From Trichodesmium erythraeum GBRTRLIN201 (GTDB lineage: Bacteria > Cyanobacteriota > Cyanobacteriia > Cyanobacteriales > Microcoleaceae): DNA of 38,605 nt. The notes beneath the pieces were generated by a model. It ran no database searches and had not been told where the DNA came from. It was given only the letters and a program-made list of their open reading frames with translations. Positions 13,433-21,800 of the stretch are shown here, in pieces. The first letter of the stretch is position 1. Every line of letters starts with the position of its first letter. A program made the translations under genes and the position numbers. The DNA lies in assembly GCA_018457135.1 (NCBI GenBank), contig JAGGDU010000074.1, positions 1-38,605 of the forward strand, read 5' to 3'.

Positions 13433-13843
13433 TTCAGTTATTAGTTATTAGTTACTATATTACTATACTAATCCTAAATGATTTTGAAGATAAATAAGTT
13501 ATCATAGAAAAGTGATCATGATTTGACTATAAGAGTACTTTCTCTAATATCATGATATATTGCTACATCATATTAATTTAAGTATTCAGCTTTTAGCAGC
13601 AACTACTAGGGTTAGATGATGACTTTTTTTCTTTCCTGGGGAATACTGAGCAAAGACAACTTTTAGTTCTCCTTGGAGATGAATTTCTCCTTTGAAGATA
13701 ATGAGTTATAATTCATAGCTGAACTACAAAGTTTATACCCAGGATACTAGCTAATAACTGAAGGCTAAATACTTAAATATTAATTATAGCAGATTCCAGT
13801 TATCTGATTTTAAATGCTGATGAATAGTTTTAGTAAGAAGTAG
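13433..13843. other. Non-coding spacer upstream of the acyltransferase
   Basis: Contains heptamer repeats (CAGTTATTAGTTATTAGTTA, 13435-13454) abutting the start codon, and copy 2 of the MITE-like repeat (13455-13569). A segment near 13630-13665 (GGAATACTGAGCAAAGA) resembles 25612-25640 in the rpoB-rpoC1 spacer. No gene. Confidence 0.6.
13455..13569. repeat. MITE-like dispersed repeat, copy 2 (partner at 1728-1851)
   Basis: See 1728-1851. This copy is ~10 bp shorter in the middle and lies directly beside the heptamer repeats upstream of the acyltransferase. Confidence 0.6.
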
Positions 13844-14347
13844 CTATTTAATGGTAGGAAATGGAAATTTTTTTGGTCTATCAAACAAACTGCTACTAAA
13901 TCTAGATTTAATTTCTACATAACAGTTTAATGGAGCAGTTTCAAATTCACAAAAATAAGCAGCAATTGGTTTTTTTTGAAGAGGTTGACATATTTGCAAG
14001 TTGTAACCATATTCTCTAGCTATCCTACCAAAATGATTTATAAATTTATAAATATCCATATATTCTTGCTTTTCCCAAGTTAATTGATTTACTACCAAAA
14101 TTACCCATGTATCATCGGGGTTAACAAACCAAGTCTCAAGAAGTTTAGCACCAAATAAATCCTTAGTTAACCAGAAACTAGGAATGCTTGGTTTAGTTTG
14201 GGATAAAGGAGGTTGAGGTAGTTGAGAAATTGAACTTCTCGGACAGACAGGAAAAATAACTTTAGGTTTAGCAGTTGCAGGTAAAAGGAATAGGAGATCA
14301 GAAAGCAAGAAGAAGGAAAGATATAGTAATAATTTTAGATTCAACAT
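13844..14347 (-). CDS. Secreted or periplasmic hypothetical protein
   Basis: I do not recognise the family. The 167 residues start with a classical signal peptide: MLNLK, a hydrophobic core (about 6-22) and a PATA-KP cleavage site near residue 27. The mature part is small and hydrophilic, with four cysteines (in VCPRSS, QICQPL, YFCEF and LNCYVE) that could pair in an oxidising compartment, and the central segment WFVNPDDTWVILVVNQLTW (around 92-110). It lies between the acyltransferase and dprA on the same strand, with spacers of ~90 bp (plus a dprA relic) and ~400 bp, so an operon with either is not evident. The ATG at 14347 is the natural start for the signal peptide. Function unknown. Confidence 0.75.
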   Translation of the reverse strand: MLNLKLLLYLSFFLLSDLLFLLPATAKPKVIFPVCPRSSISQLPQPPLSQTKPSIPSFWLTKDLFGAKLLETWFVNPDDTWVILVVNQLTWEKQEYMDIYKFINHFGRIAREYGYNLQICQPLQKKPIAAYFCEFETAPLNCYVEIKSRFSSSLFDRPKKFPFPTIK

Positions 14348-14435
14348 ATTAAGTAAGAAGGAATAAGGAAAAATATCTTAATATTAATTAAATCAGAAGT
14401 AAGAATGATAAATGTATTGAATCAATGAAAAAAAT

Positions 14436-14695
14436 ATTAATTATTTTAATAACGTATTCCTGGTAATTGAGTCATTAATCCTAATAATTCTAATTGTAGA
14501 AGATAACTAGAAAATTTTCCTGATGATAAATCAGTTTTTTGAATGATTAAATATCAAACAATAAGTTCAGTATAAATATGTTTAAAATCTCAGATAAAAT
14601 TGGTTATAAATTTAGCTGATAAGTTTGCTTTTTATCATTAAAAAAAGATAATTTTTCCGAATATTATCCTACATCAATATCTAAAAACGGCATTA
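14436..14695 (-). pseudogene. Decayed duplicate of the 3' end of dprA
   Basis: Aligns over ~260 bp with 14711-14973, the last ~85 codons of dprA, e.g. CCTGGTAATTGAGTCA.TAATC and CCTAATAATTCTAATTGTAG in both. Translation on the minus strand gives DIDVG*YSEKLSFFNDKK then stops and frameshifts; the part encoding the DprA winged helix is recognisable but dead. It is a direct tandem repeat at an offset of about 275 bp, placed just downstream of the real gene. Confidence 0.88.
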
Positions 14696-14713
14696 ATATA
14701 AATGAGAAAATTA

Positions 14714-15856
14714 TTAATTCTTTTGATAACGCATTCCTGGTAATTGAGTCACTAATCCTAATAATTCTAATTGTAGGAGAGAACTAGAAACTTCCCCTGA
14801 TGATAAACCTGTTTTTTGAATGATTAAATCTAAAACAATAGGCTCAGTAGAAATATGTTTAAAAATCTCAGCTAACATAGGTTCTAAATTTGGCATATCA
14901 GTCTGGTTTTTATCGTTAAACAAAGATAATTGTTCCGAATATTCTTCTACATCAATATCTAAAGATGGCATGGCTCCTAACATTTCTAATAATCTATCCA
15001 TAGTAATCGGAATTACCTCGGCACCTTTATTAATTAGCTGCAAAGAACCATAAGATTTTTGGTCATCTAAACGAGCGGGTAAAACATACACATCTCGACA
15101 GAATTCATTTGCCATATCTGCTGTAATTAAAGCACCAGATTTTTGTGGAGCTTCCATAATTAAAACCGCTCTACTTAATCCCGCAATAATTCTATTTCGC
15201 TGGGGAAAATGTTTAGAATTTGGTTTAGTTCCTGCGGGATATTCACTAACAGCTAAACCCTGTTTAACAACTTGTTCAGCTAAACTTTTATTTTGCCTAG
15301 GATAAACAATATCAACCCCGTTTCCAAAGACAGCAACAGTTCTTCCTCCTACTTCTAGACAAGCACTATGAGCTTCTGTGTCAATTCCTGCTGCTAATCC
15401 TGAAACAATTGTAAAGCCACTTTTTGCTAAGATTGAACTTATTTTTCGAGTCCAACGACGACCATATTCCGAAGGGTTTCTGGTGCCAACTATTCCTACT
15501 GTGGGAGTAATACCTAGTATTTCTTGCAAGTCTACTATACCTCGATAATATAGCAGAGGCGGAGGTGTGGGAATTTCTTGCAGGAGACGAGGATAGTCTG
15601 GGTCTGCTGGTGTCCAAAAATTGGGATTTTTCTCTATGTGTTGTTTGAGGAGTTGTTCGGGGTTGATGCGCGATCGCTCTTCAACTATTTTGTCTATTGT
15701 ATGACGGCCAAACCCTGATATTTGGCCTAATTCTTTTGGGGTTGATGTCCAAGCTATGGCCAGGGTGTTGAATTTTTGTTTGAGTTTTTGTAGAGCAATT
15801 GGACCTAAACCACTAATGTTTGCCCATGCTAACCAATAGGCGCGTTCTTCTGTCAA
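14714..15856 (-). CDS. dprA: DNA-processing protein DprA (SMF)
   Basis: Binds incoming single-stranded DNA during natural transformation and loads RecA. In 380 residues: an N-terminal helix-hairpin-helix-like/SAM-type region (about 1-65, ISGLGPIALQKLKQKF), the Rossmann-type SMF core with IVGTRNPSEYGRRW (122-135), SGLAAGIDTEAH (152-163), VFGNGVDIVYPRQN (176-189), FPQRNRIIAGLS (217-228) and SGALITADMA (240-249), and a C-terminal winged helix (~315-380, IVLDLIIQKTGLSSGEVSSS). All core motifs and the length are normal. The gene is intact even though a degraded duplicate of its last 85 codons follows it. The ATG is at 15856. Presence of DprA suggests, but does not prove, competence. Confidence 0.96.
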   Translation of the reverse strand: MTEERAYWLAWANISGLGPIALQKLKQKFNTLAIAWTSTPKELGQISGFGRHTIDKIVEERSRINPEQLLKQHIEKNPNFWTPADPDYPRLLQEIPTPPPLLYYRGIVDLQEILGITPTVGIVGTRNPSEYGRRWTRKISSILAKSGFTIVSGLAAGIDTEAHSACLEVGGRTVAVFGNGVDIVYPRQNKSLAEQVVKQGLAVSEYPAGTKPNSKHFPQRNRIIAGLSRAVLIMEAPQKSGALITADMANEFCRDVYVLPARLDDQKSYGSLQLINKGAEVIPITMDRLLEMLGAMPSLDIDVEEYSEQLSLFNDKNQTDMPNLEPMLAEIFKHISTEPIVLDLIIQKTGLSSGEVSSSLLQLELLGLVTQLPGMRYQKN

Positions 15857-16186
15857 TTCTTTTATCCTTTGGAGTAATGATCGGTTTTGAATTTATTTTA
15901 GGCTGGGTTGAGGGAGGAAACCCAAAAAACTTTTCATAACTCAGAAGTAATTCTTGACCAAAAAAACAAGGTCTTAGGTCTACCCTTTCAAGTTGAATAA
16001 GTTATCGTATATGGTAATACTATTTTATTTGTGTGTAAAATCTTACTGCTTTTTAACATAGGGGTTTGGGAGCTATAGTCAATGAGTAAGAGTTTCGGAG
16101 TTAATTTCTAGTTTTTTAATTTTCACAACCTAAAGAAAGTATGGCAATGATAAGATGAGTATTATCCCTAAATACTATCAATTATT
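15857..16186. other. Non-coding spacer between dprA and the nested IS
   Basis: Holds the imperfect hairpin GGGTTGAGGGAGGAAACCC (15905-15923), a form common in cyanobacterial intergenic DNA (the GGGTTTCG/CGAAACCC type). Otherwise AT-rich with no gene; the left end of the IS1-type host element should lie here but its inverted repeat is not recognisable. Confidence 0.5.
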
Positions 16187-16822
16187 ATGGGATATCCTCT
16201 GTATGCCCATCACAAAACTCATAAACATGGAAAGACTAGTAATATTCTCAGCGATATTATCGTTCTGAATGCCTACAAACTTTCACTAAAATTTTTCAGA
16301 CTCTCTACTATCGGCGAAAATTTGAACCAGAGCAAATGCCCTAGGTTGCTACAGCCTCATGTTGAAGGTAGTAGTTTAAGATGAATTAGTCGAACAGTGA
16401 ATCTCGCCTATAATACGATAGTCAGTTTGTTCAGGGCGGTCTCTCAAAAAGGACAAATGATTCATAATAGCCATGCAGAAAATCTCAAAACCTCACAGGT
16501 TAGCAGTGATGAATTTTGGTAATTTGTTCAAAAAAACAAAAACATTGTCATATGAATGAATTGACAGAAGGTGACTGTTGGATAGGCATGACTCAAGCCT
16601 CATCCAGCGAATTAATTTTAAGTGAAGTGAGTAAGTAAAGATACTGACCAGTTTATTGAAGAATTAATTTTCCACACAGAAGGGAAGACTAGCTGCAAAC
16701 AATAGTATACAGATGATTGGGGAGGGGATGAACGAGTCATACACCCAGAAGTAGAGCAAATCATTGGTAAAGACCAAACCCACCATAAGGAGCGAACTCA
16801 AGGAATTGTCAGACAGCTTCTA
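16187..16822 (+). pseudogene. IS1-type transposase relic, left part (interrupted by IS630)
   Basis: From the ATG at 16187 the translation resembles the N-terminus of a cyanobacterial IS1-family transposase (MGYPLYAHHKTHKHGKTS), continuing in other frames as YYRRKFEPEQ, PHVEGSSLR, SRTVNLAYNTIVSLFRAVSQ, KGQMIHNSHAENLKTSQVSS, QKNKNIVI, MNELTEGDCWIGMTQASSS, DQFIEELIFHTEGKTSCKQ, TDDWGGDERVIHPEVEQIIG, KDQTHHKERTQGIVRQ. The TD.WGG.ERV and ERT.GI.RQ blocks are the catalytic region. It breaks at TA (16821-16822) and continues at 18238. Several stops and frameshifts predate or postdate the interruption. Confidence 0.8.
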
Positions 16823-18237
16823 ATATCAAGTCACATTAAATAACCTTAATATCCACATTCCACACTTCTTAACATTAAATTGATAAGTTTGATCAATAAA
16901 ACGCCTCGAATGCACTCCCTGAAAATCTTATAGCTATAGGCATCAATTTTCACTGTCATAAAGAATTGTAACTGATTTTCTCATAAAAAATTAGTTATTG
17001 ATAAATTTTATTGATATTAAGTTCTAGAATGAAAATTTTTCCTATAAGTCTATTTGAAAATTTAAATATACATAAACATGTATGAAGATCTGCATGTCGG
17101 TTAATATAGACTAAGCAAAAAATAAAACGAATATGACTAATGCCCAAGGGAGTCAGTATAGAAGATCACCTAAGTGTTGAAGAATTAGAAAAACGCTATC
17201 CTCAAGCTAAAGAACCTATTGAACGTTCTCACTATCAAATAATCTGGTTGATAGCTATGGGCAAAACCAGTGAAGAAGTGGCTCAGGTAAAAGGATATAA
17301 GCGTAGTTGGATTTACGAGTTAGTATGGCGCTACAATCGTCAGGGAGCATAAAACTTAGGCGATAGTAGACAGACTAATCAGGGAGTCCCTCCGATGCTA
17401 ACTGATGAGCAACAAGCCCAACTATATCAAATTTTGTCTGATAATGCTCCAGATGGTGGACTTTGGAATGGCCGTAAAGTGGCAGATTATCTCTGTGAAT
17501 TGTTAGAACGTCCCGTTTCACCTCAACAAGGATGGCGAATTTTAAAGCAAATGAATTTTACTCTCAAAGTACCTAGACCTAGCCTAGGCAAGTCTAACCC
17601 TCAACAGCAACAAGATTGGAAAAAAAACTGACAACAGAAGTAGAAAAGTTACAAAAGCAGTACCCTGAAGCTAAACTCTCTGTATGGAGCCAAGATGAAC
17701 ATCGTATAGGTCTTAACCCGATACTGAGACGAACTTATGTAGAGACTGGCCAACAACCACTAGGGAGTGTCAATTTGGAAACGGGAATGGTTATGGTTGT
17801 ATGCCTTCCTAGAACCAGAAACAGGCCAAACCTATTGGTGGATATTACCACAAGTCAGGACATATTTGTTTAGTACCCTACTGCAAGATTTTGCCAACCA
17901 CTTTGAGATTGGAGCTAAAAAGCTAGTAATTCTAGTATTATATCGAGCTCGGTGGCATACAAGCGATCGCTTGGAGGTGCCTGATGGTATTGATTTATTC
18001 CCCCTACCTCCTTACTCTCCTGAGCTATAGCCAATTGAGAGATTATGGCCTTTGGTCAATTAAGTTGTGGCTAATCAGGGGTTTGACTCGATCGCAGAGG
18101 TAGAAGAACTGATTGAACAACGTTGTTGCCATTTACTGAGAAGACCAGATTGGCTCCGAGGAATCACTTTCTACCATTGGTGGCCTCAAGTCATGTCTAA
18201 AGATACTTATATTATGGTTAATTAATATGACTTGATA
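16823..18237 (+). mobile_element. IS630-family insertion sequence, inactive, inserted in an IS1-type transposase
   Basis: A ~1415-bp element. Its ends are ~30-bp inverted repeats with only a few mismatches: left ATATCAAGTCACATTAAATA (from 16823), right on the minus strand TATCAAGTCATATTAATTAA (from 18237). It is flanked by TA (16821-16822 and 18238-18239), the target duplication typical of IS630/Tc1. Deleting the element and one TA restores the host frame as AGA CAG CTT CTA AGT AGG TGG CAT, i.e. RQLLSRWH. It carries one broken transposase gene and a ~310-bp non-coding left part. Confidence 0.85.
17140..18225 (+). pseudogene. IS630-family transposase, decayed
   Basis: Frame 1 from 17140 gives the N-terminal HTH part (HLSVEELEKRYPQAKEPIER, IIWLIAMGKTSEEVAQVKGY), an in-frame TAA at 17350, then MLTDEQQAQLYQILS and GWRILKQMNFTLKVPRPSLG. 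At an A8 run (17619-17626) the frame shifts and continues as KLTTEVEKLQKQYPEAKLSV then WSQDEHRIGL, the first catalytic Asp; a second shift near 17770 leads to EWLWLYAFLEPETGQTYWW. The second catalytic motif reads LVLYRARWH, with Tyr where LDRARWH has Asp, and PPYSPEL is followed by a stop (18028) before PIERLWPL; VN*VV has another. So it is inactive on several counts. The A8 shift may once have been a programmed frameshift, as known in some IS630 elements. Confidence 0.85.
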
Positions 18238-18445
18238 TAAGTAGGTGGCATCGCCGATATGCAGAAATTTGGTAATATCTGGCTACACCCGAGAGATAAC
18301 GGTTAGGTTAGCTAACGCTTACTTCAATTGGATTTGGATTCATACTCGTAAAGACAATACAGCAGCACAAAGGGCAGGATTAGCCGCACCCTGGATTTGG
18401 AACGACTTGCTAACTCATCCCACACTTTGTGGCCTGCACTACTAA
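18238..18445 (+). pseudogene. IS1-type transposase relic, right (C-terminal) part
   Basis: Continuation of 16187-16822. It reads SRWHRRYA then, after shifts, TVRLANAYFNWIWIHTRKDN and TAAQRAGLAAPWIWNDLLTH followed by PTL, with a stop at 18445. This is the C-terminal end of the IS1-type transposase (canonical RWHRRQNKF...YFNWIW.H...TAAQRAGL). The 66-codon open frame from 18245 is part of it, not a separate gene. Confidence 0.8.
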
Positions 18446-18888
18446 GGATAATTACCCCAAGCTAGGGTTAAGACAGTTTAATAGAATTCGTGTGCCTATC
18501 CATGACAGAAAACTTTTCCAGCTTCAACTATAGTCCTTGAGCTTTTACTTATATTTAGGCCATGCACGATCGAGTAATGGACGCTACTCAATTAAACCTG
18601 ACCTACGAAGTTACTCCCGAACTTTGAGGAGAGGAATAATCTAGCCTAATTAGCAGTTATCAGCTATCATCCCTGATGACTATTAATCATTTTGAGAGAT
18701 GTGAACCATGATATTGAATGGCTTCTTTGCCTCAACGAATCGCACTCAGCAAACGCTAATGACTTTAATACTACTAGATTTGATATATATCTCTCCACAA
18801 AAGGTTCTCACACCCTTACCCTAATGTTCCAAAATTGGAATTTTTGGATAGGTCTATTGCTAAGAGCTAAATACTTATTACTTTGTAC
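18446..18888. other. Non-coding spacer downstream of rpoC2
   Basis: No gene recognised. Contains a heptamer-type repeat (AGCAGTTATCAGCTATCATC, 18652-18671) and the palindrome-like TTCCAAAATTGGAA (18827-18840). No clear intrinsic terminator for the rpo operon is visible. The plus-strand 66-codon frame at 18692-18892 has no recognisable motif and runs into rpoC2. Confidence 0.5.
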
Positions 18889-21800
18889 CTAAATTAAATC
18901 TGGTGTATTCTCATCAAAATCATCATAACCATCATAAACATCATCCTCTAAATCTATTTCATGCTCTAGGTCATAATTATCAGCTGGGAAATCTGAATCA
19001 AAATTACCAGGAGGGAAATCTGAATCATCTAAAACTGACCCAGACTTATCTTTAACTGGAGAAAACTCAGACATACTATCATCTATAAATGAACTTTGAC
19101 TTTGAGGTTTGCCCTGAGAATCTACAAAATTCTGATTCGCAGATGACAAATTTAGACTGTTTTCAAATTCTAATGAACGAGCTGTCTGATCATCTAAAAC
19201 CACACTCTGCAAATCACCTTCCTCAAAAATATCGAGATCATCATCCCAATTTTGTTCCAAACGATTAATCTCTGCACTCAGGGCATCTTCATAAGCATTA
19301 AAACCAGTACCAGCAGGAATCAATCGCCCAATAATTACATTCTCTTTCAATCCCCTTAACCAATCAGACTTACCCTCAATTGCAGCTTCCGTCAACACCC
19401 GTGTAGTCTCTTGGAAACTTGCTGCTGAAATAAAGCTATCTGTATTTAGGGACGCTTTTGTAATCCCCAACAACATTGGTGTATATTGAGCAGTGGCTCC
19501 ACCCGTAATAGACATAGCCTCATTAACCTGTTCCACTTGTCGCAACTCTATCAATTCCCCAGGTAACATAGTAGTATCACCACCATCATCAATCCTCACC
19601 TTAGCTGTCATCTGACGCACAATTACCTCAATATGCTTATCAGAAATATCTATACCCTGAGACTGATACACTGCTTGCACCTGATTAACCAAAAACCTCT
19701 GACACGCCTCAAAACTCCTCAGGCAGGCTTCATAAGCGCTTTCATGTTCTCGGTAATAGTTGAAGAAAGTCTCCAGAATTTCATGGGGATTCTGAGGTCC
19801 ATCTGTCAGAGCTTCACCCACGTTAACATTTTGTCCATCAGCAACAATCACATTCTGGCCATGACCTAGAGGATAATCTGTGATTGTGCCATCACTGGAG
19901 ACCACGCTCACCTCTACATTATCATCATTAACATTAACCTGAGCTTGACCAGGATATTTTACTAAAATACAAGACTCTTTGGGTTTACGTGCCTCCAACA
20001 ACTCTTCAATCCGAGGTAAACCCTGAATAATATCCCCAGTCTTAGTCCGCTCAAACACCAACAGTACCAAAATATCTCCCCGTTGCACTAAATCTCCATC
20101 CATAGTCAGCAATACTGCTCCCGTAGAAACACGATAAGGTCTGCCTTTACGCAAGATTACCTGATAACCTTTACTACCATCATTTAAAACAGTTTCCTCA
20201 ACTTTTGACACCAGACCAGACCTTGGAATAACTATTCCCGGAGCAATTTCGGTACCAGCAACCAACAAATCACCTTCAACTACAGAAGGTAAAGTATTTA
20301 CTGGTATTTTAACTAAATCTGCTTCTCGAACTATCAAAATACGACGAATAGCTTCTGAACCTTCTCGGATACCGCGAACCTCACCAGATTTTTTAGATAA
20401 TATCTGTGTGCGAGATACTACCCCTCCAGCTTCAATAACATCTCCATCTTTAACTAATAATCGAGTACTTGTACTACCTTGAGTTGTATCTGCTACCACA
20501 TCTCGTCGAATGACTAAAGACTCTAGAATTACCAACTGCAAACGCATTATTCCCTCTTCCTCTAGGTCTGGTAATAACTCAATATCAGCAGCTAATTGAG
20601 GGGCTTCTTCTCCAATCTCCAATACTAACTGGGTGCGCAGCAATTCTATACCTTCTACAGATTTAACTCTTTCCCCATCCTTAAAAGGAATTCGTTGTAC
20701 TGCCCGTAACTCAATAGAAGAATTAATTGATTTCTGAGAAGGCACACCAGGTTCATCCGGCACATGAAATTCAGTCACAGGTCGCAATAATAAACCAGGA
20801 CCCTCTGGTGTTTCTATATACTCAATGTACTTTAACTCAGATGTTACTAATCCTGGAATTACTTCCTCTCCCGGTGTAGCAATTTGACCATCCATCAGGG
20901 TTAAATCCCCTAAATCTATTTCATAGTTCCCACTATGTAGTTTGCCTGGTTTAATTACAACTTCTCTGAGAATATCATTTTTCTGGTGTACTTCTGTTAC
21001 TCCATTAGACTGACAGAAAATATCCTTAACTATTTCTGTACCAGCTTCCACATATTGACCGTCTTCTACCAAAAGTAAAGATATGTCTTTATTAACTTCA
21101 TGGCATTCTTCAGGAATCCATAGCAACGTACCACCTTTTACTACCTCATAGCCTTGTTTCGCTTTACCACGTTTGAGAACTTCTACTCCAGCATATTTAA
21201 TGATACCACCTGTAGAAGTTTGATAATTTTCGTCTAAAAGCTCAGCAATAACTTCGTGGTTGCCAACCTTACTACCAGGGGTAACTTTTAGGGCAAACCG
21301 TTGATCATTTTGGGTCTCAATGATATATTGCTCGCGGTTGGAAATACTTTCCAACCGAACTTTCGCCTGGTCTAGTCGCACACTTGCCGTAATCACCTCA
21401 ATCTCACGAGGCAAATTATCCGGCATTTCAGTATTTATTGGCAGTTGGGCAGAAGTTCCCGTCATTGAGGCTTCTAACTCATCTATTGTTGATTCTTGAG
21501 TAGCTTGGGCCAAAACATTTGTCTCATTTTGCTTCTCAGGACTGTACAAAGGAGAAGAAGAGATTCTGATCACACCACCATGTTCGGTTACTAATTTAGT
21601 TTCCGCAAGTACGCTGTTAATATTAATCCTAGTGCCATTTTTTACCATTGCTTCTGCACCTGGTGGCAAATTATATACTTCTCCTTCTAATATCCATATC
21701 AAACCACCTCTTTGAGCAATGCGAGTTGTTGTTCCTTGTTTATCTACCTTTTCTTCTTGCACCAACTGAGCAAATTTAAGTTCTCCTGCTAGGTCTGAAG

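Follow-up and report, generated by a model that had tools for sequence, protein, structure and literature searches.

Between dprA and rpoC2 of Trichodesmium erythraeum GBRTRLIN201, a transposase reading breaks off and resumes 1.4 kb further on, which raises the question of what interrupted it and in which order the parts arrived. In the window (the whole 38,605-nt stretch of DNA that was analysed) this array almost certainly consists of three nested mobile elements: a decayed IS630-family element lies inside a decayed IS1-family element, and a MITE lies inside the IS630-family element (Table 1). The original prediction had described a nest of two; its placement of IS630 within IS1 was correct, but the third level escaped it. 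We observed the family or the ends of each element, an uninterrupted host for the IS630 insertion, and target repeats flanking both the IS630-family element and the MITE. All three elements are remnants, and intact transposase is absent here.

Table 1. Positions of the nested elements, their repeats and the adjoining sequences in the window
Feature	Position	Strand	Basis or remark
Decayed IS1-family element, outermost	16133–18446	+	Split into 16133–16822 and 18240–18446; own-genome paralogue homology
Decayed IS630-family element	16823–18237	+	NCBIfam/Pfam pieces, inverted repeats, length
TA target duplication, left	16821–16822		Sequence; aligns with TA of L019
TA target duplication, right	18238–18239		Sequence
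IS630 left terminal inverted repeat	16824–16845	+	2/22 mismatches against right end
IS630 right terminal inverted repeat	18216–18237	-	Paired with left end
IS630 transposase pseudogene	17140–18225	+	Three-frame reading; Pfam/NCBIfam pieces
MITE, 249 bp, no transposase ORF	16852–17100	+	Full-length copy C60, near-full congener copies, 21-copy alignment
MITE target duplication TTAATA, left	16846–16851		TTAATAT on a 7-bp reading
MITE target duplication TTAATA, right	17101–17106		Matches left repeat
Different dispersed repeat abutting truncated IS1 left end	16017–16132		77–89% matches at L234, L235, L236
Further dispersed repeat cut off at IS1 right end	18446–18765		Other copies extend past that point

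The outer element and its paralogues

The outer transposase reading starts at 16187 and carries frameshifts and stops throughout. Its left pieces match the NCBIfam IS1 profile NF033558 at 8e-7 and 0.0042, both under the curated cut-off, and have no Pfam match; the right piece alone matches neither NCBIfam nor Pfam. Our confidence in the assignment to IS1 is therefore moderate. The evidence that the two pieces form one element is strong: they are contiguous in paralogues, as expected from the proposal that 18238-18445 belongs to the transposase beginning at 16187. When the two pieces were checked for membership in different families, the left matched IS1 below cut-off, whereas the right, unmatched by itself, could be placed only through this contiguity.

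With 40 of 101 first-look candidates scored, at least 41 own-genome matches to 16100-16822 were found at E ≤ 0.001, the window itself included; five of them are 31-33 bp long and come from a different repeat. The 19 loci fetched (L012-L030) show 71-83% identity to the IS1 left part. Paralogues have recognisable ends, GGTAGTGC...GCACTACC, with terminal inverted repeats, as in the IS1 family, whereas the window copy lacks a left end: its left terminal inverted repeat is unrecognisable, its right end is recognisable, and paralogue homology mostly begins at 16133. Elements of the IS1 family produce 8-9 bp target duplications. Inspection by eye of L016, L017, L019 and L022 showed none, nor was a target repeat found for the window copy, which has lost its left end. 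The E. coli IS1 encodes an InsA-InsB' pair; the outer element, in contrast, appears to be a single reading.

The 1.4-kb insert has an empty site in related IS1 copies

Thirteen distinct fetched own-genome loci match both sides of the insert, and ten were aligned with the joined flanks of the window. Eight of these ten IS1 paralogues cross the join without a gap, and in L019 a TA occupies the same alignment columns as the window TA; in the remaining pair, L013 and L014, the insertion site falls within a deletion. Among the unaligned loci, the left and right matches are separated by 7 bases in L028 and 12 in L030, exactly as predicted for an empty site, and the left match of L024 ends at 16571. 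Congener copies in G001 (L174, L178 and L183) and G005 (L179) likewise have the left-to-right spacing of an empty site; from other congener IS1 copies the region around the insertion site is missing. Because IS1 copies show the empty site, the 1.4-kb segment was genuinely inserted, and the predicted bounds are confirmed. The predicted 1415-bp insert with TA on both sides is thus borne out by the sequence and the gapless alignment, and uninterrupted IS1 copies, which the prediction proposed to look for elsewhere, occur in both the own genome and congeners.

Terminal inverted repeats of about 30 bp had been described, in agreement with what we find: from TATCAAG to the MITE edge, 25 of 28 positions are the same in the two IS630 ends, and a repeat finder returned arms (16814-16852 and 18209-18247) that are 85% complementary over 39 nt. 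One detail counts against a simple IS630 insertion, namely an extra A between TA and TATCAAG at the left end that is absent at the right end.

Removal of the insert had also been said to restore the reading frame exactly. This holds at the join, where connecting 16822 to 18240 gives RQLLSRWHRR in frame (...GIVRQLLSRWHRRYAEIW*YL), but not through to the C-terminal end. About 20 nt downstream of the join the window copy carries a base that the paralogues lack; the C-terminal motif (VRLANAYFNWIWIHTRK...) therefore lies in another frame, and the joined frame runs into a stop (W*YL).

The insert resembles IS630-family elements

Three pieces of the insert match the NCBIfam IS630 profile NF033545 (1.2e-23, 9.9e-22 and 8.9e-5), each below its whole-protein cut-off of 100 bits. 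Pfam HTH_33 and DDE_3 match the insert above their cut-offs, the PF13358 match standing at 6.7e-11, over cut-off. An IS630-type DDE transposase, a TA duplication and terminal inverted repeats are all present, and on these sequence features the insert is assigned to the IS630 family. Here it is a pseudogene: residue 71 is an in-frame TAA, the reading shifts frame near 17620 and near 17780 (placed by eye), and further stops occur.

ISY100 of Synechocystis, a cyanobacterial IS630 element, is described as inserting almost only at TA, which is duplicated (PMC2170065). The window element shares with the IS630/Tc1-mariner family, to which ISY100 belongs, its HTH and DDE_3 pieces, inverted repeats, TA duplication and a length of about 1.1-1.2 kb without the MITE. 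Unlike ISY100, it is a pseudogene, is longer (1160 vs 947 bp) and has no second full-length copy that we could find in its own genome, where the search returned only fragments and ends.

The 22-bp IS630 terminus recurs at six other own-genome places with 1-3 mismatches; the scan gave eight matches in all, against one for the reversed control. At one of the six, L074, a second end lies 225 bp away; at the other five, no second end was found in the loci read within 1500 bases on either side. The idea that these termini also serve as ends of other IS630 copies is thus upheld as to recurrence, with a paired end at L074 only. A single IS630-type terminus (3/22 mismatches) lies at 1532-1553 of the window.

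A MITE occupies most of the IS630 leader

The IS630 inverted repeats enclose the whole 1415 bp, as they would if there were only two elements and the 318-bp leader were native to the window IS630. This is very improbable, since the 249-bp segment recurs alone at many sites, flanked there by 6-bp target repeats of its own, and leaders measure 54-67 bp in the three IS630 relatives for which both ends were found. These three (L145, L162 and L163, the first two from one genome) are the ones that show both ends with the TATCAAG motif among 28 relatives read; they measure 1143 bp (leader 54 bp), 1141 bp (leader 54 bp) and 1176 bp (leader about 67 bp), respectively. Subtracting the MITE and one target repeat leaves a window element of 1160 bp and, by arithmetic, a 61-bp leader running from TATCAAG to the start codon.

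The segment is short, non-coding and multi-copy, with inverted ends and a target duplication of constant length, as is characteristic of a MITE. In a DNA search with the insert, 16851-17103 was matched alone at C60 and in pieces elsewhere. C60 is a full-length own-genome copy (87%), and three congeners contribute another 41 that are near-full (84-91%), giving at least 42 near-full copies besides that of the window (own genome 1, G001 13, G005 15, G006 13). These counts are lower bounds from 59 genomes (the own genome and 58 relatives), with about 13 first-look candidates scored in each, and a few of the G005 copies sit on contigs that possibly duplicate each other. Among the roughly 13 candidates scored per genome, the same-genus G002, G003 and G004 gave no match, and five other genomes gave one short match each.

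When the window copy was aligned with 20 fetched near-full copies (n = 21), the edges were sharp, with the family consensus CCCACATTCC on the left and ATGTCGG on the right; the window MITE itself begins with TCCACATTCC... and ends with ...ATGTCGG. In one fixed frame, chosen after the copies had been viewed, the 6-bp flanks are identical in 15 of the 21 copies and agree at five or more positions in 17. Over 20000 shuffles of the flank pairing in the same frame, identical flanks averaged 1.05 copies and never exceeded 6. As no MITE-free copy of the window IS630 was found, the empty site of the MITE was not seen. A copy of the same family at L004 (1333-1543) is seemingly interrupted by a short element with ends resembling CAGGACTTACGCA.

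Allowing one mismatch at most, the own genome contains the CCSACATTCCGCA end at 26 places and its reversed control at none. One pair of ends, followed at C35, stands 1.7 kb apart (CCCACATTCAGCA and ACCACATTCCGCA). Between these ends lie broken readings with matches to IS1634 transposase (4.3e-13 and 5.4e-18, each under the whole-protein cut-off). The first 17 bases of the MITE consensus match one end of the IS1634 remnant (L222) at 16 of 17 positions. This similarity of the ends suggests that an IS1634-type transposase mobilised the MITE. Like MITEs with IS1634 ends, it is about 250 bp long, has no ORF, is multi-copy and has inverted ends and 6-bp target repeats; it differs in that its pairing with IS1634 relies on the likeness of its ends to those of a single decayed element in the own genome.

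Order of insertion and decay

Because a host must precede its guest, the IS1-family element came before IS630, and IS630 before the MITE. That IS1 came first and IS630 second had already been predicted, and the uninterrupted IS1 copies in the own genome and in congeners, together with the IS1 and IS630 family matches, agree with it. Going by the established biochemistry of these families, transposition would have built the nest. The IS1-family element would have landed between the present dprA and rpoC2; an IS630-family element of the Tc1/mariner type would then have entered a TA of the IS1 transposase gene by cut-and-paste, duplicating the TA; and the 249-bp MITE with IS1634-like ends would have inserted into the 5' leader of IS630, duplicating TTAATA.

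The outermost 22 bp of the IS630 end are not disturbed by the MITE, which could therefore have entered before IS630 moved into this IS1 copy. The IS1 element may have been defective before IS630 arrived. The further claim that both elements decayed afterwards is not established, as IS1 decay cannot be dated later than the arrival of IS630.

Deletions over the site and the integrity of the assembly

In a midpoint-rooted IS1 tree the clade of the window copy comprises five rows (support 100/99). Two of its four other members, L013 and L014, reach the insertion site, and both are deleted over it, by 62 and 42 bp. L173 has a 70-bp deletion over the site and a 135-bp deletion elsewhere; it falls across the midpoint root, yet by path it is no further from the window copy than L013 and L014 are. 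None of nine more distant IS1 copies examined is deleted at the site. The pattern was noticed after the fact and is given little weight.

An IS1::IS630 composite that formed once in the ancestor of this IS1 subfamily, with later loss of IS630 and flanking DNA from the clade-mates, would leave deletions confined to L013, L014 and the nearby L173 and spare the nine distant copies. We nevertheless hold it distinctly unlikely, given that the deletions differ from one another, that a similarity search found no IS630 sequence in the deleted loci, that L173 carries a second deletion, and that a small and decayed clade yielded the pattern only in retrospect. It is hardly probable that the deletions over the TA are footprints of imprecise ancestral IS630 loss, and that IS1 with a passenger IS630 was once mobile. 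The genome is repeat-rich and lies in 241 contigs, so unrelated repeats might have been joined in assembly, but misassembly would not be expected to produce target repeats at two nested levels or matching host sequence on both sides of IS630, which makes an artefact scarcely credible.

Genomic setting

Six congener genomes were compared at rpoC2: their homology to the window ends at 18791-19141, and no IS1 or IS630 match was found there. The flank available was 1500 bases in four of the six, about 425 in one and almost none in another, and the array is absent from the four loci that can be judged. Nothing in the 3-6 kb upstream of dprA in 14 cyanobacterial records (L044-L057) matches 16133-18445, and homology upstream of dprA ends at or before 15992; the comparison covered these 14 records and left out ten more distant ones (L058-L067). 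Because neither the congener rpoC2 nor the cyanobacterial dprA loci gave a match, the array is seen only in the window among the loci examined. A side-by-side arrangement of dprA and rpoC2 was not seen in the loci read. Among the matches listed for the dprA product, Okeania sp. SIO2F4 shows 91% identity, and Hydrocoleum sp. CS-953 and Trichodesmium MAG_R03 show 88% each. A partial copy of the dprA 3' region just downstream of the gene (14437-14694) matches the same stretch of sister dprA as the main copy does.

Both sides of the array adjoin other dispersed repeats, and the left end of IS1 may have been lost by recombination with the one at 16017-16132. Since other copies of the 18446-18765 repeat extend beyond its cut-off point, IS1 may have inserted into this repeat, adding a fourth level. 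A search beyond IS1 for the rest of this repeat was negative; 16017-16132 was considered for this role and rejected as a different repeat. No shared protein was evident by eye in the copies of the 18446-18765 repeat, and an Rfam scan of 13500-19000 returned nothing at gathering score. A short repeat of about 70 bp at 18785-18862 has many copies across the genus.

Discussion

According to a 2008 survey of cyanobacteria and archaea, groups of IS4 and IS630 are the two that have been deployed most widely among those recently active; some 100-kb intervals, for example in Trichodesmium erythraeum IMS101, contain up to 18 recently active IS (PMC2246112). In genomes so rich in IS, nested insertions would be unsurprising. 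We found no earlier description of this nest in the accessible parts of the open-licence literature. The nest is an ordinary kind of genomic wreckage that records the order of arrival, and by itself it adds no new biology. It does offer a clear three-level record of insertion order, set in a genome where mobile remnants abound, and illustrates that an unusually long IS leader can be a hidden MITE.
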